Shown here in pieces: positions 1,681 through 17,139 of a stretch of DNA of 17,561 nucleotides (positions are counted from its first letter, which is position 1; each line of letters opens with the position of its first letter). A program made the translations under genes and the position numbers. Below the pieces are notes generated by a model that made no database searches, was not told where the DNA came from, and saw nothing but the letters and a program-made list of their open reading frames with translations. This stretch comes from an uncultured Bacilli bacterium (lineage in GTDB: Bacteria > Bacillota_I > Bacilli_A > RF39 > UBA660): positions 1 to 17,561 of the forward strand of contig CANQOH010000027.1 of NCBI GenBank assembly GCA_947625425.1. Direction: 5' to 3'.

Positions 1681-3144
1681 TTACCTCCTAAACATTGCGG
1701 CTGATGCATTATCTTTACCAGCAGATACGACTCGTGATGCTTCGCCGATAAATTTTGCTCTTTTAACAGCGTCATATGTTAAAGCTCTTTCAACTAAAGC
1801 TCTAGTTATTTCTGAACGTGGAGTATTTTGTGCGATAATTCGTATATCATCTTGTGATAGTAAATCTGTTACACCATCACTTAGTAGTAATAATGTCTTA
1901 TAAGTATAATTAGGAATTGTAAGAGTTTGGACTCTTGTCATATTTGGTTGGCCCATATAACCAGTTATTTTATTATTATTTGGATTAAATCTAAAATCAT
2001 CTATTTGTTCTGGCGATGGTTTTTGACCACCATTTTTGACTACTGCTTGATTCCATACATAGGATTCATCAGATGTTAATAAGCTTATACTTGTATCTGT
2101 AACAGCGTAAGCTCTGGAATCGCCTACATTAGCTATAATAGTATCTTGTTCAGTAACAATTGCACCAACTAATGTAGCTCCAGCTTCAGTATGATATTTA
2201 TTATATATATCGTCATTTATTTTTTTAATAGCTTGGGCAAATGATTCTTTTAAACCTGATGGAAAATAATAAGCATCAGCTGGGACGGTTTTAAACCACT
2301 CGGCTAAACTTTTAACAACATAGTTACTAGCTACTTCACCAGCGGCTAAACCACCCATACCATCAGACACAGCTAAGAATTTAAAATCTGGATTATCAGG
2401 ATGAGTTAAGATAATAACTGAATCTTCTTGATTTGATCTTTTTTTGCCAACATCTTGAGTGGCATATAATGTGCCATCTAAAGCATATTCATTACGAGCA
2501 TATTGAACTTGAGTACCCATAGCAACTTCTTGTAAACAGCGATTAACAGCTTCATAGTTAATGTTGACTTTAGTCATTGGTTTAACAACTGCAACATCAT
2601 GATCTATTTTAGCTAATAATTCTTTGGCATTAGGTGTCCCTACAGTATCTAATTGATAGCGGAATTCAGCGCCTTTTTCTAATGGATCTGGAATAAAGGT
2701 TGTACCATTACTATACCATTTAGGATTAAAACGAGTTTTAGCTACAGCATCAGCTAAGACAAATAATTGGTTTGGATTAGCTGAATAATATAAGATAGCA
2801 TTTATTTTAGGATTGGTTATTATTTCCATTTCCTTAACTATTTCACTAATGTTAGGGAATGAACTTTCATCATACCAACTTGTATTTCTAGTATGACGAT
2901 TTGGATCGTGTAGTTTTTGATATGCTGAATAAATAATAACAGCATTTTTTATAATATATTCAATAAAGTCTTTGTTATCTAATCTTCTAACTCTTGTACG
3001 AGCCATATTAGTACTTGTAAAATTAGTTGGATAAACTTCTTCAACAGCATTCTTATATAAAATTGAAGAAATATTTTCACTAAAGTTAGGATGTTTTTTT
3101 AATGTTTCAATAAAAGCTACATCAATATCTTGTATTTTTGTCAT
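1681..3144 (-). CDS. PP2C (PPM) family Ser/Thr phosphatase with an uncharacterised N-terminal domain
   Basis: Metal-dependent protein Ser/Thr phosphatase of 487 residues. The C-terminal half (about 225-487) carries the PPM motifs in order: KKRSNQEDS (metal Asp 241), DGMGG (261-265), GATLVGAIV, GDSRAY (341-346), SDGVTD (422-427) and a terminal GKDN (Asp478-Asn479). The catalytic core therefore looks complete. The N-terminal 220 residues, including RTRVRRLDNKDFIEYIIKN and a later ILYYSANPNQLFVLADAV helix, are not a domain I recognise. No membrane segment is seen. Simple bacterial PP2Cs of the PrpC type are near 250 residues, so the extra half may recognise substrate or act as a sensor. No partner Ser/Thr kinase gene is in the window. 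It opens an operon with the DUF1292 gene. SD is AGGTGAT, close upstream of the ATG. Confidence 0.9.
   Translation of the reverse strand: MTKIQDIDVAFIETLKKHPNFSENISSILYKNAVEEVYPTNFTSTNMARTRVRRLDNKDFIEYIIKNAVIIYSAYQKLHDPNRHTRNTSWYDESSFPNISEIVKEMEIITNPKINAILYYSANPNQLFVLADAVAKTRFNPKWYSNGTTFIPDPLEKGAEFRYQLDTVGTPNAKELLAKIDHDVAVVKPMTKVNINYEAVNRCLQEVAMGTQVQYARNEYALDGTLYATQDVGKKRSNQEDSVIILTHPDNPDFKFLAVSDGMGGLAAGEVASNYVVKSLAEWFKTVPADAYYFPSGLKESFAQAIKKINDDIYNKYHTEAGATLVGAIVTEQDTIIANVGDSRAYAVTDTSISLLTSDESYVWNQAVVKNGGQKPSPEQIDDFRFNPNNNKITGYMGQPNMTRVQTLTIPNYTYKTLLLLSDGVTDLLSQDDIRIIAQNTPRSEITRALVERALTYDAVKRAKFIGEASRVVSAGKDNASAAMFRR
1684..1689 (-). promoter_or_regulatory. Shine-Dalgarno of the DUF1292 gene inside the PP2C 3' end
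   Basis: AGGAGG, a perfect anti-SD match, encodes the final Arg-Arg of the phosphatase and is followed by TAATT and the ATG at 1678. A ribosome ending the phosphatase stands over this site, which favours reinitiation. Confidence 0.85.
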
Positions 3145-5595: not shown

Positions 5596-8111
5596 CTTCT
5601 AGATTCAATAAAAGTAACTATTATAAAGACAATAAAGCCGATTGATGTGGTATATAAAGAAATATCTTTTAATGGCGATTTATATTCCATAGCTATGTGA
5701 TGATGACCACTTTTGATCTTAAAACCAATAAATGTTTCATTAACTTTTTCAATTTTAGTTTCTTGATCATCAACTTTTACTTTGAATCCTTCATCATAAG
5801 GAATACTTAAAGTAAAATAACCATCTTTAGTAACATTAATATCACCATTAATATAATCTCCTTTAGTAGTTTCTTTATCAACGATAAAGGTATCAACTTT
5901 AGAAGATAATTTTTCTAAATAAACATAATCTAAATAATATAATTCAAAGTCTGATAAATTATATTTACCTTCTGAGAAATTAATATTTAAAAATTCTTGA
6001 TTATCAAAAGCTAGAACATAATCAAATGTTGTATTACCATTATAGTATTTCCATGATTTGGCAGTTAGTTTATTTTTAATAGTATTAATAGTTATTGCTA
6101 AATCTTTTTCTTGATCAACACGATTCATTTTGAAACGAATAAATAATATTTTATTACGATATTTTTCTGGTAATTCATATTTTAATTTTAATTTACCATT
6201 AGATTTTATGGTATATGAACCATTTTTTTCTTTAATGATATTTTCATTTTTAAATATTTCATCTAAATCTAAGTCCATTTTAGTAACATTAGAAACGAAA
6301 TCATTATCAGTTTGAGCATCAGCAACAATAACATTTAATAAAGCTTCTTGTTTAGCTTCATCACTTAATCTATCAAAATCGTCATAACTCATAATATTAG
6401 CTGAAGCATAAGCAAATGGTAATGCTTGTTCATTTTTATAAACATAAATACCATCTTTTTCATAACACTTATCATAACCAATTAAACCCAAGCCATCAGA
6501 AATATAATATTTATTACCACTAAATAATAAATAGAAAATATTAGGTGATGTGACAGTTAAGGAACGATTACGAGTTGGAATATTATTCATAGCTATATCA
6601 TAAAAGAATTGATTATATTTTTGATTAGAAATAGATGAATAAACAGTTGAATTATAATAGTTTATATTTTCATATATTTTATTTGGGGTTCCAGCACGAT
6701 AAATATTATTAGATATACGATACATATTATGATCATTATTAGTTATGTTGTTTACTAATTCTTTAACTACTTGTTCATTATTTTTAGTTGTATATTTTAA
6801 TTCTAAAGTATCAAATTTATTAAAGATGATACAAGTACTAAATAATAAAATAAATAATGGAATAGTTAAAATGAGTTTTTTATTAAATTTATTATAAAGA
6901 GCTATTAGAATAAATAATAATATGATATGGATAAAATAAGCAGCTAGATATGATTTAGTAATAATAACTATAATTGAAATAATAACCATTATAGGAGTTA
7001 AAACTTGATAACGGACTTTTTGATCAAGAACATCATTTATAAATTCAGCTAGAACAATTACATATAAAGGTAATAAAGGAATTAATGATTTAGAATCAAT
7101 ATACATCGTACCATTTAATAAATAATTGAAGATATTAAATAAACCTAAGATAGTTAAGAATAAAGCTAAAATCTTACGGGGTTTATCTTTGGTAAATAAA
7201 TGAACCATAGCAGGAATTATTATAGCTGTAAGACCTACACCATATGAATAGAACATAACATTTCTAAAAGATAAACGTGGTAATAATAATTTCTTTAAAC
7301 TGATGACTACATTTGATGGAGCACGATTATTCATTATCGCTGCTAAAGTTGGTAAAGTAATTATTGAAGACATAAAGATAGCAATAATAATTGGTCTTAA
7401 AACACTTATTAAAGCTTTCATAAATGTTTTAAAAGTTACTTTATTCATTTGTTTTAAATAACAATAAAGACCATAAATTAGAAGACAAAGAATTCCCCCA
7501 ACACTATAGTAATAACTAGTCATTATCATTAAGAAAACAGAGATAGTTAATAACCAACTATGTTTTTTTTCAAAGACTTTATCAACACCAAATAAACCTA
7601 ATATTAAAAATGGCATATAGTTGATAAACATTAAATGACGATGAGAATGAACAGAAATTGATGAAGATAAAATAAAAGCTAAACAAGCAATTAAACAAGC
7701 TTCACTTTTATAATTTTTAGATTTTAAAAAGACATATAATAAATTAGCACTGATAATAACAATTAAGATGATAGATATAATAAGATAATTTATCATTGGT
7801 AATTTAGGTATTAAATAAGATATTAAGATAATTGGACTTAATAAACCATAATAAGAGAAATTATAGATATTTTGACCATTACCGATATTTAAAGCTAAAT
7901 CAGGAAATAAATCATGAGTATTATAAAATAATGTTCTAAAGTATTCAGGCATTGATACATGTTCAGCATACCAGTCTAAGGTTGAACCATAATAGTAAGT
8001 TGTACCACATAAAAGGAAAACTAGTAATAGAAAAGTTAAAGATATGATAAGCATGTAAATTATATCTTTTAATTCTAGTTTATTAGTAGTAGTTTTTTTA
8101 GGCTTTTTCAT
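5586..8111 (-). CDS. yfhO: YfhO-family polytopic membrane glycosyltransferase-like protein
   Basis: Large membrane protein of 841 residues. After a Lys-rich cytoplasmic start comes a first membrane helix (about 17-36), then an extracellular loop with LDWYAEH (Asp46), in the position of the acidic catalytic residue of GT-C transferases. The family signature NGQNIYNFSYYGLLSP (78-93) follows. About a dozen further membrane helices reach residue 430. A long extracellular domain (about 440-805) and a last helix (ISLYTTSIGFIVFIIVTF) before SRRKI complete the protein. YfhO proteins in Bacillus and Listeria are linked to glycosylation of wall or lipoteichoic acids from a polyprenol-phosphate sugar. 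Its ATG overlaps the preceding deacetylase stop (TAATG), with SD GGAGTG 7 bases upstream. Acceptor and sugar are unknown; no CsbB-type sugar-loading enzyme is in the window. Confidence 0.88.
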   Translation of the reverse strand: MKKPKKTTTNKLELKDIIYMLIISLTFLLLVFLLCGTTYYYGSTLDWYAEHVSMPEYFRTLFYNTHDLFPDLALNIGNGQNIYNFSYYGLLSPIILISYLIPKLPMINYLIISIILIVIISANLLYVFLKSKNYKSEACLIACLAFILSSSISVHSHRHLMFINYMPFLILGLFGVDKVFEKKHSWLLTISVFLMIMTSYYYSVGGILCLLIYGLYCYLKQMNKVTFKTFMKALISVLRPIIIAIFMSSIITLPTLAAIMNNRAPSNVVISLKKLLLPRLSFRNVMFYSYGVGLTAIIIPAMVHLFTKDKPRKILALFLTILGLFNIFNYLLNGTMYIDSKSLIPLLPLYVIVLAEFINDVLDQKVRYQVLTPIMVIISIIVIITKSYLAAYFIHIILLFILIALYNKFNKKLILTIPLFILLFSTCIIFNKFDTLELKYTTKNNEQVVKELVNNITNNDHNMYRISNNIYRAGTPNKIYENINYYNSTVYSSISNQKYNQFFYDIAMNNIPTRNRSLTVTSPNIFYLLFSGNKYYISDGLGLIGYDKCYEKDGIYVYKNEQALPFAYASANIMSYDDFDRLSDEAKQEALLNVIVADAQTDNDFVSNVTKMDLDLDEIFKNENIIKEKNGSYTIKSNGKLKLKYELPEKYRNKILFIRFKMNRVDQEKDLAITINTIKNKLTAKSWKYYNGNTTFDYVLAFDNQEFLNINFSEGKYNLSDFELYYLDYVYLEKLSSKVDTFIVDKETTKGDYINGDINVTKDGYFTLSIPYDEGFKVKVDDQETKIEKVNETFIGFKIKSGHHHIAMEYKSPLKDISLYTTSIGFIVFIIVTFIESRRKI

Positions 8112-9433
8112 TATGCTTCACTCCACTCGCTTGCTTTAACCCAGTTTTCATATGGATACATATGACCAAATTTTTCATTTATGAAATACTGACTCTCATA
8201 TAATTTAAGTAGACGATTTTTCTCTTTAAGTTCTTTTTTCGTAATAGAAATTAGTTCTGATAAATGATTATTTAAATCATCTTTTTTATAATAACGACCA
8301 AAGTAATATAATTTAGATTTATCAGGTACGACATAGGTCGTAATACTACTTGTCATTTGATGATGAATATGACCGTATTCGCCATCAGGATTATGCGTAA
8401 CAATAATATCCCAATCTTTAAGAGCAATAATATCTTTAATGTCTTGGGTAATATTACCACGAACAGAATCCCAATTATCACGTTCACCATTAGTTTTGTC
8501 TGGATAACCTAACATAATATATTTATCTTTAGTTTCTTTCATTACTTTTTCAAATTCTTTTACACGGACTTTATCGACACCACAAGTAACACAAACAACT
8601 AAATAGTCATCTTCCATTAAATGAGCTCCACCCCAAATAGTATCATCATCTGGATGAGCGACAATCATTAACTTATTAACATTTTTTAAATTAATTTTAG
8701 AAAAATCTAAAGGATTACGATAAGTTGATTTACCCCAATCATTATAATTGACCCAATTTTCATAAGGAATCATTTGATCAAATGTAGTTTGAATAAAAGA
8801 TTGACTCTTATATAAACCAATTATATTTTTCTTCTCAGATAATAAATTATCATCAATTGTAATCATATCATTTATATTATTAACTAAATTCTTTTTACTA
8901 TAATAATGACCAAAGTAAAATAATTTACTTTTATCAGAAACAACATTAGTCGTTAGGCTACTAGTCATTTTATGATGAATATGACCATATTCACCATCAG
9001 GATTGTGAGTTATAATAGTATGCCAATCTTTTAAAGCAACAATACTTTCTAAATCTTTAGTAATGTCGTCTCTTACACTATCCCAATTATCACGTTCACC
9101 ATTAGTTTTATCAGGATAACCTAACATTATATATTTATCGTTTGTTTTATGCATAACTTTAACAAATTCATTAACACGTGTTTTATTTGTACCACAAGTA
9201 ATACAAACTACTAAGTAGTTATCTTCAATTAAATGAGCTCCACCCCATAAAGTCTCATCATCAGGATGAGCGACAATCATTAAATTATCTATATCAGTTA
9301 AATCGATTTTAGAAAAATCTTTATCTATTTTATATAAATTATAAAAATATAAATATATTCCGATACCCATTGTTAAAATACATACTATTAAAATGATTAA
9401 TAATACATAATATTTCTTTAAGAAATTTTTCAT
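8111..9433 (-). CDS. Membrane-anchored PIG-L/LmbE deacetylase with two tandem catalytic domains
   Basis: Predicted Zn2+-dependent N-acetylglucosaminyl de-N-acetylase of 440 residues. MKNFLKKYY precedes one hydrophobic helix (about 10-31); Lys on the N-terminal side predicts N-in, catalytic part outside. Two complete PIG-L units follow with a 204-residue period. Each has the metal and base motif (AHPDDE 55-60; AHPDDD 259-264), WGGAHL, LGYPDKTNGERDNWDSVR and THNPDGEYGHIHH (142-154; 346-358). In characterised members (MshB) the His and second Asp of AHPDD and a later His bind zinc and the first Asp is the base; all are kept in both units. Only the motif's last residue differs (Glu60, Asp264). 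SD AGAAGGG is 6 bases upstream. It is translationally coupled to the YfhO-like gene, pointing to an extracellular GlcNAc-type glycan as substrate (inference). Confidence 0.9.
   Translation of the reverse strand: MKNFLKKYYVLLIILIVCILTMGIGIYLYFYNLYKIDKDFSKIDLTDIDNLMIVAHPDDETLWGGAHLIEDNYLVVCITCGTNKTRVNEFVKVMHKTNDKYIMLGYPDKTNGERDNWDSVRDDITKDLESIVALKDWHTIITHNPDGEYGHIHHKMTSSLTTNVVSDKSKLFYFGHYYSKKNLVNNINDMITIDDNLLSEKKNIIGLYKSQSFIQTTFDQMIPYENWVNYNDWGKSTYRNPLDFSKINLKNVNKLMIVAHPDDDTIWGGAHLMEDDYLVVCVTCGVDKVRVKEFEKVMKETKDKYIMLGYPDKTNGERDNWDSVRGNITQDIKDIIALKDWDIIVTHNPDGEYGHIHHQMTSSITTYVVPDKSKLYYFGRYYKKDDLNNHLSELISITKKELKEKNRLLKLYESQYFINEKFGHMYPYENWVKASEWSEA
8114..9319 (-). repeat. Tandem in-gene duplication, 612-bp period
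   Basis: Unit 1 (about 9319-8708, residues 39-242) and unit 2 (about 8707-8114, residues 243-440) are direct repeats. Stretches are identical at DNA level: the sequence beginning TCCCAATTATCACG (plus-strand reading) occurs at 8469 and 9081, exactly 612 bases apart, and the identity runs about 29 bases. Both units start with DFSKI and end with PYENWV, so the whole domain including its C-terminal cap was copied. Confidence 0.92.
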
Positions 9434-11021: not shown

Positions 11022-11984
11022 TTATGGATAAATAATTATCTTTTCATTACATAAAGAAGTTTCATTAATATCTAAAGGATGATTAGCTAAAGGACTAGTA
11101 TTAACTAAGACTTGTTTAGATTTAACTTCTTTAATAAAAGTATGAGCATTATCTTTGTTATCAGTGAAGATTGAAGTACTATATAACGAACCATTAGTAT
11201 TAATAAAATAGATAGCTTCATCTAAGTTATTAACTGGTATAGCATTTGGTATATCAATATTTAGATCTTCTTGATAATAAATTGTTATATTATTATTTAA
11301 TTTAATAAAGTCTTTAATAAAATCTAGATTAGTTAATGATTCAATATATAAATCAAAATTTTCATAACCACTAGTTATTATTTTATTATGAGTTTGTTTT
11401 AAAGCATTATTTTGTAATTCACAATTACCAATAGCAATAACTAAATCATAACTAGTATAGTAATTTAAGACTTGATAGATATTGTCATTAGCATAGATAT
11501 TGATTTGATTAGAGTCCATTTGATTATGAGTTAAAACATTTTTAATAGCTTCAACTAAATAATTATTAGTACCATACATGTAACCATTATAACTGATTAA
11601 TAAAGAGTTATTAACAATTAAGTTACGTAATATTAATTCAAGTAAAGTATATGGATTACCATCAAAGATAAGACAGATGGTTCCAAGGCTTTCAATTTCC
11701 TTACCATAGTAATATTTCTTTTCATCGTTTTTTAAATTATCAATTACTTTACCATAAGTTATTTCTTCTTTTAAACAGTTATCGATTATGTTATCAAAGA
11801 TAGATAATTCAACTTTAAAACCATTATTATTCTTAAGATCTATTTTATTAGCTTCTTCTAGAACATTAAAAGTTTTATCTAATGTTTCTTTTATTTCAGT
11901 TAAAAGATTATTAAGATTAAGAGTATTTAGTTTATTGGCATTTTGAGTTTGTAAAACAATCTTTTCTAAATTATCTTGTTCCAT
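11022..11984 (-). CDS. Shortened aldehyde-dehydrogenase-superfamily (ProA-like) protein, probably inactive
   Basis: Resembles glutamate-5-semialdehyde dehydrogenase/ALDH proteins over most of its length, but has 320 residues where ProA usually has over 400. Recognisable parts are GKEIESLGTICLIFDGNPYTLLELILRN (cofactor-domain entry), DLVIAIGNCELQNN, KIITSGYENFDLYIES and a C-terminal part, LDEAIYFINTNGSLYSTSIFT to VLVNTSPLANHP, which in ProA follows the catalytic region. The block normally carrying the catalytic Cys (around VCNALE in ProA) seems missing: the chain passes from ENFDLYIES through an Asn/Ile-rich segment to the C-terminal part. The family and the missing site are judged by eye only. 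ATGs at 12008 and 12005 exist, but SD AAAGGGG (11999-11993) lies 8 bases before the ATG at 11984, which is chosen. It overlaps the giant gene by 14 bases, implying co-translation. A proline-synthesis role is doubtful; no proB is nearby. Confidence 0.65.
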   Translation of the reverse strand: MEQDNLEKIVLQTQNANKLNTLNLNNLLTEIKETLDKTFNVLEEANKIDLKNNNGFKVELSIFDNIIDNCLKEEITYGKVIDNLKNDEKKYYYGKEIESLGTICLIFDGNPYTLLELILRNLIVNNSLLISYNGYMYGTNNYLVEAIKNVLTHNQMDSNQINIYANDNIYQVLNYYTSYDLVIAIGNCELQNNALKQTHNKIITSGYENFDLYIESLTNLDFIKDFIKLNNNITIYYQEDLNIDIPNAIPVNNLDEAIYFINTNGSLYSTSIFTDNKDNAHTFIKEVKSKQVLVNTSPLANHPLDINETSLCNEKIIIYP

Positions 11985-14900
11985 GTGAGATACCCCTTTC
12001 TTCATCAAAATCAGGACTTAATGAATCAATAGTGTTATATAAAGTAGTTACATCGCTTAACATTCGCGATGTATCAATTTGCTTACCTTTATTTATTAAT
12101 TGTAAGAAAGCTAACTTCATTTGAAGATATACTTCTTTAGACACATCTTTAAGGACATTATTATAATCAATTTTAGTTTTTACAAGTAAATCTAAGATAT
12201 TAATATTAGATGGTGTTTCTTCATAAATAATAGCAAAGTTTGGTGTAACAATTAGTCTTAAGTAATCAGCATTAACACCATAATTGTAAGCTAGTTCACT
12301 AAAGGCGTTTTCTTCATCATCAATATCACAATTTAATTGATAGTTTTGACGATTAGATGTTTCCACCTCAAGATGTTTTAAAGTTTTAACTACTGTACTA
12401 TTTATATTATTTTTATCATATTCTTGATATACATCATAGTGAATAGTTGGTGTTTCAGTATCAGTAGGTTCTATATGACCTTCTTTTTCAGAAAGAATAT
12501 ATTGAGTTCTAGAATCACTAATGTATAAAGGTCTTTGTAATGGAACAGGTGCTTCATACTTAGGTGGTAGTTTAGGTGTTTCTTCATCTTTCTTAGCGTA
12601 TTTATTAATAGCTGTAGCTATATCATTGTAACCTAAACCTACTGTTACTTTAGATAGTTTTAAACTATTATATTGTTCTTCAGTTATTTTACCTTCATCT
12701 AATAATTTCTTATAAGCTGCTTCATCAGTAGCGATTAATTCTTCGGCAGCTTTAACATAAATATCAAAGATTATTTTAGCAAATTCAGCTTTAGATAAAT
12801 GTTTTTCTTTTTCAGCACGTTCGAAAGCACGATCAGGTACTTCAACATTATCGAAGCATAAAACATTTTGATTACGCCATACCCAACTTTGAGCAGATAT
12901 TTTACCAAGTTCATCTCTAATAACGAATAAACGACCATGTTTACTTGTCATACTATGTTCCATATCAAGTTCGGCACAGTTACCTATTTCTTGACAACAA
13001 TCTGATAAAGTACCAGCAGCAATTGGGAAAGCATCCATTAAACGAGTTATTTCATAGGTATATTCATTGTTACTTGAAGATATTCGAGGAATACTTGAGA
13101 AAGTTCTTAATTTACCATAATTAAAGATTTGTTGTAGAGTATCAAAATCATTTTGGGTATAACCAGCAATAGCTGAAACACGAGCTAACTCTTCATTGCC
13201 TATTTCAACATTAATATATTTATTACTTTGAACATAATCAACAGCTAATTTTAGAGTTAATGCACGATTACTATTATCTATTTTTATTTGGGTAAATTGT
13301 TTTTGAATAGCAGCAACATAAGTCATATAATCTGGATTAGCAAGAATTTCATCGATATTTTTTAATAAGAATTCTCTAAATTCTGGATCATATTTTAAAG
13401 TGAAACCACCAAAGAGCGTATGAGCTATTTGCGGAGATATCATTCCTCTTAAATCGTTAGCTTCCATAAAGTTTCTAACCCATTTAGCTGTTTCGGGATA
13501 TTGTTGTTCATTAATTATTAAACGACATTGTCTATCTTCACCAACATTATATATTAAAGGCAATACTGGTTCGTTTTCGCTGATATCAAAACCTTCTTTT
13601 TGCATGACTTCACGAAGACGTTTATATTCATTTAAACCAATTAACATATTATTTTTAGTAGCTTCTGGATCAACAAATGATCTTAAGATAGTTTTTTCCA
13701 TTTGAAAGATTGTATTTTGCGCTACTGGAGTAAGATTACGTGGTAAATCATTAATTAATGAAAGTAATCTTTTTTCAGCACGAGGGTCGCCTTCAAAAAT
13801 ACCAAAAGAATAAGCTAGTTTAATTAAAGCATCAATTCCTTCGCGAGTTTTTTTGAAATTACCACATCTCATTAATGTTGACCAACTCTTACCATTAGCT
13901 AAGAACTTATCAGCATCTTCAAAAGGAATTGTCGTCATAACTACATAACTAGGAATAAATTTCTTACCAGTTTTTAAATACCACTTTTCTAATAATTCTA
14001 GTTTATTATTATTTATCATATAATCAACATCTTCAGGCTTTTGATTACCTAGTTTAAGGAATTGTTTTTCACCACCAAGACGAGTAATAAAATCATCGAT
14101 ATTTTTACCTTTTAAATATGGGGAATTATAATAAAATGGTAAGATACTTTTGTCTTGTAAAAATGGTTGCCATTCGGGATGACTCTTTAAAATAGTGAAT
14201 GATATATTGTAATTAGGATTATAGTAATAGTAATATTTTAAATCTTCAGGAGCAGCTGGTGATAAGAACATATGAGGTATTTCTTGTTTAATAAATTCGG
14301 GAACATCATCAGAATATGACATTCTACCCTCTTTAATATAAGTAACTATTTTATCTTTTATACTATTAATATCTGTTTGATCAAAATTTTTTAATTCTTT
14401 TAAACTAACTAAAATGTCCGGATCATTTTTAATGTAATTACCAAAGATAGAAACTAATTTATAAGCTATTTCATCAGGTAACCCATTTAAATGATTATTA
14501 GTTATAGTAATTCCTCGAAAAGCAAAGGAAAACTTAATACCTTTTAAATATTCTATGTATTCAGGATGCTTACATAAATCATCATAATTAAGTGAACAAT
14601 TGTAAAATTTACTTTTTAACTCTTGTGGAGTATTAGCAGGAAGAAATATATCAGGATGTTCTTGTTTAAATGATTCAGGTACATCTTCACTAAAAGTTAA
14701 ATTATAATGAGTAATTGCTGAATATAAACTCTTTTCAATACTTCTTTCTAAACCTTCTTTACTATCATCCTTTACATCAATAACAATAAATCTAAATAAA
14801 TGAGAAATAGAACTATATGGTACAAGAAAATCTAGTAAAGCTTTTAAACCATATTTTTTAGTATATATGTCTTGAAAAGTTAATTCAGTAATCATTTGTG

Positions 14901-17139
14901 GCATTGGGAATTCAGAATTAACAACACCAATACGTTTAGGAATATCCATAAAATTGAATGAAGTTTTACCTTCTAAATAAGGAAGCCATTCAGGATGTTC
15001 TTTTATTTTATTTAATGATAAACTACCAGCATAGAAATAATTTTTTAATTCAGCTGGAGCATCTAGACTTAAAAATAATTCAGGATGTTTATTTTTAAAC
15101 TTAGGAGATAATTCTTCATCATAAGTAGCATCAACTAGTGTATATTTTTTATCTAATTTATTAATTATGTTGTTATATATAGCTTCAATAAGTAAGTCAT
15201 CTAATTCTTCAAGAGTTAAATTATCTAATGACGTAATATTTATGGTGATATTATCTAGTAAATTACCATAAGACCATATGTATTCATTAACTTTATCAGA
15301 AGCACCAATAGAATATAAATAATCTAATAATCCTAGGTGGTCGTCTGAAGATGTTAAGGTTGGTTGAATAGTCGATAAAGAATCAGTTAGTTTTATATTT
15401 TTTAAAAATGGTTGCCATTCAGGATGAAGTCTTAAAGATTGAAAACTTAATTTATTAGTATAATAAAGATTTTGTAAATCTTCAGGAGCAATTTTGCTTA
15501 AAAAAATATCAGGATATTTACTTGTAAATGTTTCAGGTAACTCCTTAACTATTTTGGCATGATATTCATAGTATTGATTACGAAAAGCAATTCTAAATAA
15601 GTTAGCTAAACGATTAAGGAATTCTTCATAAGTAGTTACTGGTTCATCAACATTATAACTATAATACTTAGAAATAATATCTAAGTTTTTACCTAAAGAA
15701 CCATATTCATCTTGAAAACGGATTAGATTATTAAGACCTAAAGAGTCGATTAAACGTTGATCATTAACGGTTGCTAAAGTAGTTGATGGAGTTAGTAAAT
15801 AGAAATAATTATCATCAAGAACATTTAAGCCTTGAAGATAAATGCCTATTTTCTTTATCCATTCAGGATACTTGGCTTCACCATATATAGAAGAATCAGT
15901 AGCTTTACCAAAAAGCAAATTTTGATTGTTATAATAACGTTCAACTACAGTTAAATAAAAGATATCTTTAGGATTAGTTATACCTCTTTCTGGAGCATTA
16001 TTTATGTGATTTGTTAACATATTAAAGAAGTCATAATCTTCAGAAAAATCAAAATTTAAAGTATTATCTAAAAATAAGAATGGAGATTCAGCAATAATTT
16101 GAGAAAAATTCTCAGAACCAATTAATTTTCTTATTTCTCTAAAATAATAAGCACCAATATGATTAAAGAAATCACCTTTACTAAAGACCGAATAATATTT
16201 AACGTAATCTTCAACTGTTAGTGAATTTTTATTAAATCTTTCATAAACATCTGGTGGTAATTCATTTTCATTAATAAATAGATTTGGATATTTGGTTTTA
16301 AAACGATTACTTAAATTATAAGTTCTTTGATAATATGAAGTAATTATTAACTTAGAAACATATTCATCTACTTTATCCATCATTTGGGAGATAGATTCGA
16401 TTTTTAAGATAGCTTCGGCTTCTTCTTTAGTTACATCAGATTGAGGACCATAATTATAATATGTTATATTTTCTATGACAATTGATAATTCATTAATATA
16501 TTCAGGATTTTCTTTATAAATACTTAATGCTTTGGTTAAACCAAAATAATTAATTATATTGTTAAAAGTTGTATTTAATTTAGAAGTATAGTTTAAATAA
16601 TTTTTTTTAGTTTTAGAAGATAGTTCTTTTATTTGTTCATCACTTAAAGCAAGTAAATCACTTATTTCTAACTGATTATTAATATATTTCTTTTCAAAAT
16701 CGTTATCAAATAAAGGCGATAAGAAAACTGTTGGATTATCTTTAACTACTTTTTCATCAAAACTATCACGTGATAGATTTAAATAACTACGATTTACATT
16801 ACGAACATTACAACCTTTTAAATTAACTCCTAAAGGAGATTCAATACTATCAATAATGTTAAAATCGATATTGGCATGGGTAGCAGATAAATCTAAAGGT
16901 TCATCAAGAGAAACAAGAGATATATCTTTCCATTCGGCAAAAGGTATTTCACTTAAGTCATAGCTGATTATTTCTTTGATGGTAGAAAATATCGAACTAC
17001 CATATTCTCTTATAAATTTATCTTCATCTTCTTCATATAAATCTTTATGTTCTTCACTTAATTGTTCAAATTTTTTTAATTCAGTAAAAAATTTTTCTCT
17101 TAATTCTCTAAATTTTTCTAAAGTTATTTTTTCTCTCAT
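11971..17139 (-). CDS. Giant repeat protein with CCQ/AQSWVWRN C-terminal domain, function unknown
   Basis: A single uninterrupted 1722-residue frame; no signal peptide or membrane helix seen, so probably cytosolic. Parts: a charged helical start (1-60); a short segment with LKGCNVRNVNRSYLNLS; about seven repeats of roughly 143 residues (about 127-1000), marked by P(D/E)(I/L)FLS, AP-ELK, FY, and 38 residues after the unit start HPEW-P-L; a non-repeated middle region (about 1000-1370, with SYVVMTTIPFEDADKFL, AYSFGIFEGDPRAEKRLLSL and AHTLFGGFTLKYDPEFREFLL). Next comes a compact domain with DCCQEIGNC (1380-1388), HS (1395-1396), GRLFVIRDELGKIS, AQSWVWRN (1416-1423) and CFDNVEVP, then a long helix and VTVGLGYND. 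A Pro-rich linker and an acidic tail end the protein. The strand-helix-strand order after GRLFVIRD faintly recalls a GNAT fold (speculation). SD GAGGT, 7 bases from the ATG; own promoter; overlaps the ALDH-like gene by 14 bases. Confidence 0.9.
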   Translation of the reverse strand: MREKITLEKFRELREKFFTELKKFEQLSEEHKDLYEEDEDKFIREYGSSIFSTIKEIISYDLSEIPFAEWKDISLVSLDEPLDLSATHANIDFNIIDSIESPLGVNLKGCNVRNVNRSYLNLSRDSFDEKVVKDNPTVFLSPLFDNDFEKKYINNQLEISDLLALSDEQIKELSSKTKKNYLNYTSKLNTTFNNIINYFGLTKALSIYKENPEYINELSIVIENITYYNYGPQSDVTKEEAEAILKIESISQMMDKVDEYVSKLIITSYYQRTYNLSNRFKTKYPNLFINENELPPDVYERFNKNSLTVEDYVKYYSVFSKGDFFNHIGAYYFREIRKLIGSENFSQIIAESPFLFLDNTLNFDFSEDYDFFNMLTNHINNAPERGITNPKDIFYLTVVERYYNNQNLLFGKATDSSIYGEAKYPEWIKKIGIYLQGLNVLDDNYFYLLTPSTTLATVNDQRLIDSLGLNNLIRFQDEYGSLGKNLDIISKYYSYNVDEPVTTYEEFLNRLANLFRIAFRNQYYEYHAKIVKELPETFTSKYPDIFLSKIAPEDLQNLYYTNKLSFQSLRLHPEWQPFLKNIKLTDSLSTIQPTLTSSDDHLGLLDYLYSIGASDKVNEYIWSYGNLLDNITINITSLDNLTLEELDDLLIEAIYNNIINKLDKKYTLVDATYDEELSPKFKNKHPELFLSLDAPAELKNYFYAGSLSLNKIKEHPEWLPYLEGKTSFNFMDIPKRIGVVNSEFPMPQMITELTFQDIYTKKYGLKALLDFLVPYSSISHLFRFIVIDVKDDSKEGLERSIEKSLYSAITHYNLTFSEDVPESFKQEHPDIFLPANTPQELKSKFYNCSLNYDDLCKHPEYIEYLKGIKFSFAFRGITITNNHLNGLPDEIAYKLVSIFGNYIKNDPDILVSLKELKNFDQTDINSIKDKIVTYIKEGRMSYSDDVPEFIKQEIPHMFLSPAAPEDLKYYYYYNPNYNISFTILKSHPEWQPFLQDKSILPFYYNSPYLKGKNIDDFITRLGGEKQFLKLGNQKPEDVDYMINNNKLELLEKWYLKTGKKFIPSYVVMTTIPFEDADKFLANGKSWSTLMRCGNFKKTREGIDALIKLAYSFGIFEGDPRAEKRLLSLINDLPRNLTPVAQNTIFQMEKTILRSFVDPEATKNNMLIGLNEYKRLREVMQKEGFDISENEPVLPLIYNVGEDRQCRLIINEQQYPETAKWVRNFMEANDLRGMISPQIAHTLFGGFTLKYDPEFREFLLKNIDEILANPDYMTYVAAIQKQFTQIKIDNSNRALTLKLAVDYVQSNKYINVEIGNEELARVSAIAGYTQNDFDTLQQIFNYGKLRTFSSIPRISSSNNEYTYEITRLMDAFPIAAGTLSDCCQEIGNCAELDMEHSMTSKHGRLFVIRDELGKISAQSWVWRNQNVLCFDNVEVPDRAFERAEKEKHLSKAEFAKIIFDIYVKAAEELIATDEAAYKKLLDEGKITEEQYNSLKLSKVTVGLGYNDIATAINKYAKKDEETPKLPPKYEAPVPLQRPLYISDSRTQYILSEKEGHIEPTDTETPTIHYDVYQEYDKNNINSTVVKTLKHLEVETSNRQNYQLNCDIDDEENAFSELAYNYGVNADYLRLIVTPNFAIIYEETPSNINILDLLVKTKIDYNNVLKDVSKEVYLQMKLAFLQLINKGKQIDTSRMLSDVTTLYNTIDSLSPDFDEERGISHGTR
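14140..16761 (-). repeat. Diverged tandem repeats (about 143 residues, about 430 bp) in the giant gene
   Basis: Aligned by hand, units begin at about residues 127, 276, 386 (degenerate), 534, 677, 820 and 946 (partial), that is nucleotides 16761, 16314, 15984, 15540, 15111, 14682 and 14304. Units at 534, 677 and 820 are in exact register: 38 residues from unit start to the His of HPEW or HPEY (His572, His715, His858), a 143-residue period. The last unit has a 3-residue insert (His987). The segment near TGGTTGCCATTC (plus-strand reading) recurs almost unchanged at 14165 and 15410. The variable part between HPEW and the next unit is helical and Leu-rich. Confidence 0.8.

Follow-up and report, generated by a model that had tools for sequence, protein, structure and literature searches.

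The window analysed here, a stretch of 17,561 nucleotides from an uncultured Bacilli bacterium, carries on its minus strand the gene of a giant protein, P0001, followed by the gene of a ProA-like partner, pseudo-ProA. As read from alignments and from the predicted model, the giant is a helical repeat array (FLS/HPEW units) with a conserved helical region, M, and two domains of GNAT fold, GNAT1 and GNAT2. The partner is ProA-like, starts within the end of the giant gene and lacks the segment expected to hold the catalytic cysteine, and it is strongly linked to the giants that bear M. The pair may represent a new kind of two-protein machine. An earlier note had presented the open frame at 11971-17139 as the core of a possible new system; the frame is intact and single, running from ATG to stop over 1722 residues, and the overlapping partner gene lends support to the wider claim. 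The features of the pair are:

11971..17139, minus strand: giant protein P0001 (cap, repeat array, M, GNAT1 and GNAT2), from the open reading frame (ORF) call.
16780..17139, minus strand: N-terminal cap, residues 1-120, helices and then short strands in the model secondary structure.
11022..11984, minus strand: pseudo-ProA partner, 320 residues, with its ATG inside the giant's last codons, from the ORF call, NCBIfam and the alignment with 1o20.
11971..11984, minus strand: overlap of partner start and giant stop, 14 bases, with a stretch resembling a ribosome site just ahead of it (by eye).

The partner gene and its linkage to the giant

The partner matches the ProA family of NCBIfam (E = 1.9e-15) in two stretches, and its score of 56.5 bits against a curated cut-off of 289 (NF001221) places it below the ProA threshold. 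Alignment with the solved ProA (PDB 1o20) also gave two blocks, one that stops at chain residue 244 and another that begins at 328. The catalytic cysteine of 1o20, which we take to lie near position 255, is therefore expected inside the 244-328 stretch that is missing from the partner. The six partner copies listed have no match to positions 238-290 of TIGR00407. Of ten genomes with a family member (six of them with a window-type giant), none has a gene that scores above the ProA cut-off, while 12 of 14 controls have one. The ORF list also gives a longer frame for the partner, which begins with TTG and reaches to 12008. In 31 of 48 downstream pairs the partner ATG is set back by 11 or 14 bases from the point where the giant's stop codon ends, which means that the conserved last residues of the giant are at least partly the start region of the partner.

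The linkage was followed in a genome collection of 71 loci, 56 of which bear M and 15 (L057-L071) have GNAT1 without detectable M. Of the 56 loci with M, 50 have a partner close to the giant, or 51 of 57 when the window is counted; among the 50, the partner is downstream in 47 and upstream in two (L036 and L055), and in L052 it stands on the far side of a small reverse ORF. In five of the six M loci devoid of a partner (L014, L019, L026, L028 and L041) the giant is cut by the contig end, and the sixth, L037, shows no partner with 882 bases available. Among the M-lacking loci the count was 0/15 by phmmer and 1/15, a weak match, by profile A6 (16 partners). No other neighbour family recurs widely across the loci.

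Two sets of genomes were sampled in addition, 193 from the order of one host and 191 from that of another (presumably RF39 and TANB77), with thresholds set after the lists had been viewed. In the first order eight of 193 genomes have the giant (E<1e-140), and it is these eight that have the partner (E<1e-30); in the second, four of 191 have the giant, and they are also the four with the partner (E<1e-100). With the partner threshold at E<1e-30, the second order gained two genomes, one in which the partner adjoins a divergent GNAT giant (G435) and one with no giant beside it (G575).

The repeat array and the C-terminal half

The earlier note had described about seven units of roughly 143 residues. 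Since a self-comparison of P0001 by blastp showed no off-diagonal pair, unit profiles were used in place of self-alignment. At E<=1e-3, 308 homologues match P0001 residues 1080-1560; the best 120 of these 308 were listed. The protein set used below numbers 121 (P0001, its database copy P0002 and 119 others). Alignment A1, which takes in 28 of these 121, served to build single-unit profiles for six candidate units, and P0001 was then searched with them. Scores between units reached 65.8 bits, against a top score of 10.2 bits in the shuffle control (six profiles, 200 shuffled copies each), so that the repeat stands above chance by profile. Units 3-6 detect one another strongly (12-66 bits), the unit-3 profile being made of five rows only, as most homologues are gapped there. 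The profile of unit 1 detects units 2 to 5 at 11-29 bits (its shuffle maximum is 4.3); unit 1 itself is detected weakly or not at all by the profiles of the other units, and only some of the profiles link units 1 and 2 to the array. A pooled profile, whose training set includes the units of P0001 itself among others, finds six core units:

16591..16767, minus strand: repeat core unit 1, residues 125-183 (hmmsearch, as for all six).
16162..16317, minus strand: repeat core unit 2, residues 275-326.
15388..15543, minus strand: repeat core unit 3, residues 533-584.
14944..15117, minus strand: repeat core unit 4, residues 675-732.
14515..14688, minus strand: repeat core unit 5, residues 818-875.
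14137..14310, minus strand: repeat core unit 6, residues 944-1001.

The spacings from start to start are 150, 258, 142, 143 and 126 residues, and the period of ~143 is thus held by units 3, 4 and 5 only. A possible seventh unit at ~387-435 is degenerate and was seen by eye only. Copy number differs between homologues: by the pooled profile, four of the 121 proteins have three units, 18 have four, 75 have five, 19 have six and five have seven. In 23 chosen homologues, unit 1 best matches the first unit and unit 6 the last unit in 23/23, unit 2 best matches the second in 20/23, and units 3-5 wander; the ends of the array are therefore fixed, and its length varies internally.

The array is modelled as helical in a confident prediction, with a mean predicted local distance difference test (pLDDT) score of 91.4. 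In seven of eight homologues its identity to P0001 is 20-25%, compared with 40-47% for M, 53-59% for GNAT1 and 32-37% for GNAT2; the close relative P0005 gives 49, 77, 81 and 58%, respectively. A helical array with lower conservation than M and GNAT1 agrees in part with the reading of the giant as a recognition or scaffold protein. The absence of the repeat from known families also held, as searches of Pfam, NCBIfam, PHROGs, PADLOC and, by sequence, the PDB gave no convincing match for P0001. In Pfam at E<=1 only SHOCT appeared (residues 1476-1494, under its cut-off) and no repeat family covered the array. Weak PDB sequence matches to a COP9 subunit (E = 1.1) and to sarcoma antigen 1 (E = 0.0025 by profile) were taken as helical chance. 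Fold searches with the whole array gave no convincing solenoid, an absence that is not evidence of a new fold. The cap is pentapeptide-like by eye only.

Behind the array, where the earlier note had described two non-repeated domains, three regions were found instead:

13120..14124, minus strand: M domain, residues ~1006-1340, mostly helical (hidden Markov model of residues 1020-1225 across loci; model).
12469..13101, minus strand: GNAT1-like domain, residues ~1347-1557 (AlphaFold model, structure comparison, alignment A5).
12013..12441, minus strand: GNAT2-like domain, residues ~1567-1709.
12994..12999, minus strand: Cys-Cys, C1381-C1382 (36/36 rows of A5).
12874..12891, minus strand: QSWVWR motif, residues 1417-1422 (36/36 rows, 121/121 proteins).
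12841..12858, minus strand: CFDNVE motif, residues 1428-1433 (36/36 rows, 121/121 proteins).

Structure comparison places both GNAT1 and GNAT2 in the GNAT topology in the predicted model, and hhalign finds no sequence similarity between the two. The suggestion of a C-terminal effector is carried forward in this form, the predicted GNAT-like folds making the C-terminal part readable as one. The invariant Cys-Cys pair sits in a loop modelled with low confidence (pLDDT <50 at model residues 445-447).

The C-terminal domain might instead be a remote relative of PcfJ with a role in DNA transfer, as in a conjugation or phage protein. Foldseek against viral models does list PcfJ-like proteins (best E = 8.3e-4, probability 0.66), and the spacing of the C, FxxR and N residues is similar by eye. 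Nevertheless, hhalign gave a probability of 0.04% against a set of seven PcfJ proteins only and 0.1% against one, that is, no similarity, and P0001 has no match to PF14284. The relation seen by eye and in the viral fold matches is thus unsupported by profile comparison, and we consider it most improbable.

The proposed mechanism and what weighs against it

Taken as a whole, we propose a cytosolic two-protein recognition-and-modification complex, a tentative reading to which we give rather less than even weight. Its five steps are all inferred and are listed by falling confidence. First, the giant and the partner would be translationally coupled and form a complex; complex formation by itself we consider probable. 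Second, a target would be bound by the fast-diverging array of variable length. Third, the partner would dock on the M-to-GNAT half, most likely on M. Docking is placed there because the partner accompanies M where FLS/HPEW units are absent (none detectable in L051 and L053) or reduced to one (L055 and L047). Fourth, GNAT1 and perhaps GNAT2 would act as the effector in an acyl- or aminoacyl-transfer-like reaction, in which GNAT1 would use the invariant CC, QSWxWR and CFDxxE residues in place of the classic coenzyme A (CoA) loop. Fifth, pseudo-ProA may serve as an adaptor or a metabolite-sensing regulator and not as an enzyme.

Several observations weigh against this mechanism. The CoA pyrophosphate loop, [QR]xxGx[GA] after strand 4, was found in 0/36 rows and 0/121 proteins for GNAT1 (up to 45 residues past CFDxxE). 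The weak partner match among the M-lacking loci, L060:6811-7662 (283 residues, partner profile E = 1.1e-4), lies directly downstream of a giant with DUF4116 repeats and GNAT1; this giant has no M even at a loose threshold, and the downstream gene has no NCBIfam match. Partner-like matches were found in 27 of the 191 second-order genomes, many of them without a GNAT giant. Ten chosen regions were fetched, eight having a partner match with no adjoining GNAT giant and two being divergent pairs. In L121 the giant of the pair has 11 DUF4116 units and GNAT1 and matches M in part; in L124 it has 1358 residues and GNAT1 and matches M weakly. In L117 (twice), L118, L119 and L122 the partner adjoins a large protein (597-918 residues) without GNAT1, M or a Pfam match; in L120 a protein of 969 residues is one ORF away from the partner match, and L115, L116 and L123 show none. 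The idea that these large neighbours are repeat proteins failed, as half-against-half alignment beat 50 shuffles in none of six, and the six carry no FLS/HPEW unit. This failure and the L060 match without M weaken the proposed mechanism as well as the shared-adaptor scheme given next, and they add some weight to the no-catalysis and housekeeping readings below. The partner matches without a GNAT giant mean that the partner family extends beyond the GNAT system, so that an obligate pair is weakened and a shared adaptor is allowed.

Such an adaptor would define a new class of two-component bacterial recognition systems, in which a constant, disarmed pseudo-ProA serves different giants (FLS/HPEW-repeat GNAT, DUF4116-repeat GNAT and further large proteins whose build is unknown), and every giant brings a C-terminal effector of its own. 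The CC/QSWxWR tandem-GNAT module would be one of these effectors and may carry out transfer without the classic CoA loop. We regard this wider scheme as distinctly unlikely.

The missing CoA loop also speaks for a binding machine without catalysis, in which both GNAT-like domains are degenerate and bind ligands or proteins, the assembly works as a scaffold or for sequestration and pseudo-ProA is likewise a dead enzyme used for binding. The partner without its catalytic segment and the low-confidence Cys-Cys loop of the model fit this picture. On the other hand, CC, QSWxW and CFDxxE are kept in 36/36 rows drawn from proteins with several kinds of N-terminus, the motifs are recognisable in a cyanophage protein (see below), and such conservation exceeds the usual demands of folding. 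A machine devoid of catalysis is in our estimate unlikely, though a serious contender.

Relatives, neighbouring genes and known systems

Relatives of the C-terminal module (alignment A5) of any kind were found in 52/193 and 17/191 genomes of the two orders, in 6/59 relatives of the L001 genome (L001, from an uncultured Bacilli metagenome-assembled genome (MAG), is the closest locus found, with 69% identity across residues 1-1722) and in 6/392 genomes of the phylum. The N-terminus changes among the M-lacking loci: L060 has DUF4116 repeats (Pfam), L057 and L058 have BspA-like leucine-rich repeats by eye, and the others have other helical-looking regions. The more distant relative L086 is BspA-like by eye as well. 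Eight of the 15 M-lacking loci (L061-L066, L068 and L069) have another conserved downstream gene (222-491 residues) with a VIDISxKDK-like motif by eye, for which no Pfam match above cut-off was obtained in the two tested. In P0145, helix-turn-helix Pfam matches (N-terminal by eye) are fused to the C-terminal module, on a contig of 1949 bases that may be an assembly chimera.

In a tree of 61 C-terminal pieces the window groups with L001. Of the rows labelled Clostridia, 14 out of 18 fall in one supported clade and the other four stand among Bacilli-labelled rows; the four label changes needed on the tree make transfer or mislabelling of MAGs likely. ORF68 of cyanophage MaMV-DC and its sister in MaMV-DH01 match the GNAT1 profile at ~62 bits (E ~1e-20 for a four-sequence set and 2-3e-19 for 74 frames), and the best viral fold match is a phage model (E = 1e-10). 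Four scans of viral contigs gave no confirmed relative; phage and plasmid collections searched with P0001, and plasmids searched with the partner, gave no match.

At least two giant-family ORFs are present at L007, L014, L019, L035, L041, L044, L045, L046, L049, L054 and L070; some are full-length tandem copies, and others (for example L035, L041, L045 and L046) may each represent a single gene interrupted by a stop or by misassembly. A relaxase-like gene lies just upstream of the giant in L031 (Mob_Pre, Pfam 1.7e-47) and, by clustering, in L033 and L068.

An anti-phage or conflict system would combine an array that senses the invader, a GNAT tail that poisons or modifies and a partner acting as inhibitor or immunity protein. 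The patchy distribution of the module in the two orders and among the relatives of L001, the fast divergence of the array, the tandem copies and the relaxase gene upstream of three copies are in line with it. PADLOC (2023), searched with six proteins, gave no family at E<=1, however, and phages themselves carry the GNAT1 domain. The neighbours supply no widely shared family, and the few recognised by eye, which took the place of a library scan, are not defence genes. A defence role therefore appears improbable.

The gene order in the window is a gpmI-like fragment, the giant, the ProA-like gene, a divergent MgtE-like gene, a PIG-L duplicate, a YfhO-like gene and others up to an enolase-like gene (PIG-L, YfhO and PP2C were named via Pfam; gpmI, MgtE and enolase by eye). 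L001 shares this order around the giant and partner. Together with the lack of a signal peptide by eye, it would suit an ordinary housekeeping protein in the cytosol of a lineage that has been little studied, a protein whose neighbour is kept through shared transcription. The window-type pair occurs in few sampled relatives, yet is closely linked across two orders, and we find a housekeeping role quite improbable. The PIG-L protein (8111-9433, minus strand) has an internal duplication with halves 66% identical across 177 residues, and the PP2C phosphatase (1681-3144, minus strand), which adjoins a DUF1292 protein, has an additional N-terminal region of ~230 residues. A promoter and terminator scan did not rise above shuffles, and an Rfam search gave no match.

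Immunity and signalling repeatedly make use of large repeat proteins in which the recognition array can change and the tail is conserved. In the family described here the type of array switches between relatives, the tail stays constant and most copies retain a coupled enzyme that looks dead. Should pseudo-ProA be a common adaptor, it would offer a directly testable system in uncultured bacteria. The tail would also open a way into a GNAT-like domain family that has no name as yet and extends to phages. Neither the giant nor the giant/partner pair was found described in searches of the open-access literature, which do not establish absence in print.

Among known systems, the structural matches of the C-terminal domains include GNAT acyltransferases, VipF and FemX among them, which we take to be tandem GNAT proteins. 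P0001 differs from these in lacking the CoA pyrophosphate loop in GNAT1 and in being fused to a giant repeat array, and no GNAT family is among its Pfam matches; we know of no GNAT with an invariant Cys-Cys and QSWxWR. The partner differs from ProA in length (320 residues against a 427-residue chain in 1o20) as well as in its missing segment. DUF4116 (PF13475) repeats, predicted as an alpha-solenoid in PMC8078820, stand ahead of the same GNAT1 tail in the relatives L060 and L121, whereas the window protein has a different repeat sequence and no DUF4116 match. Uncharacterised phage proteins of GNAT1 type are MaMV-DC ORF68, its MaMV-DH01 sister and, by fold, BFVD A0A7G9A3X2. The stretches taken from the Microcystis phages MaMV-DC and MaMV-DH01 (8.3 and 6.3 kb, 74 frames) have no FLS/HPEW unit, M or pseudo-ProA by profile; their GNAT1 motifs stand behind a large N-terminal part, as in the giant family.

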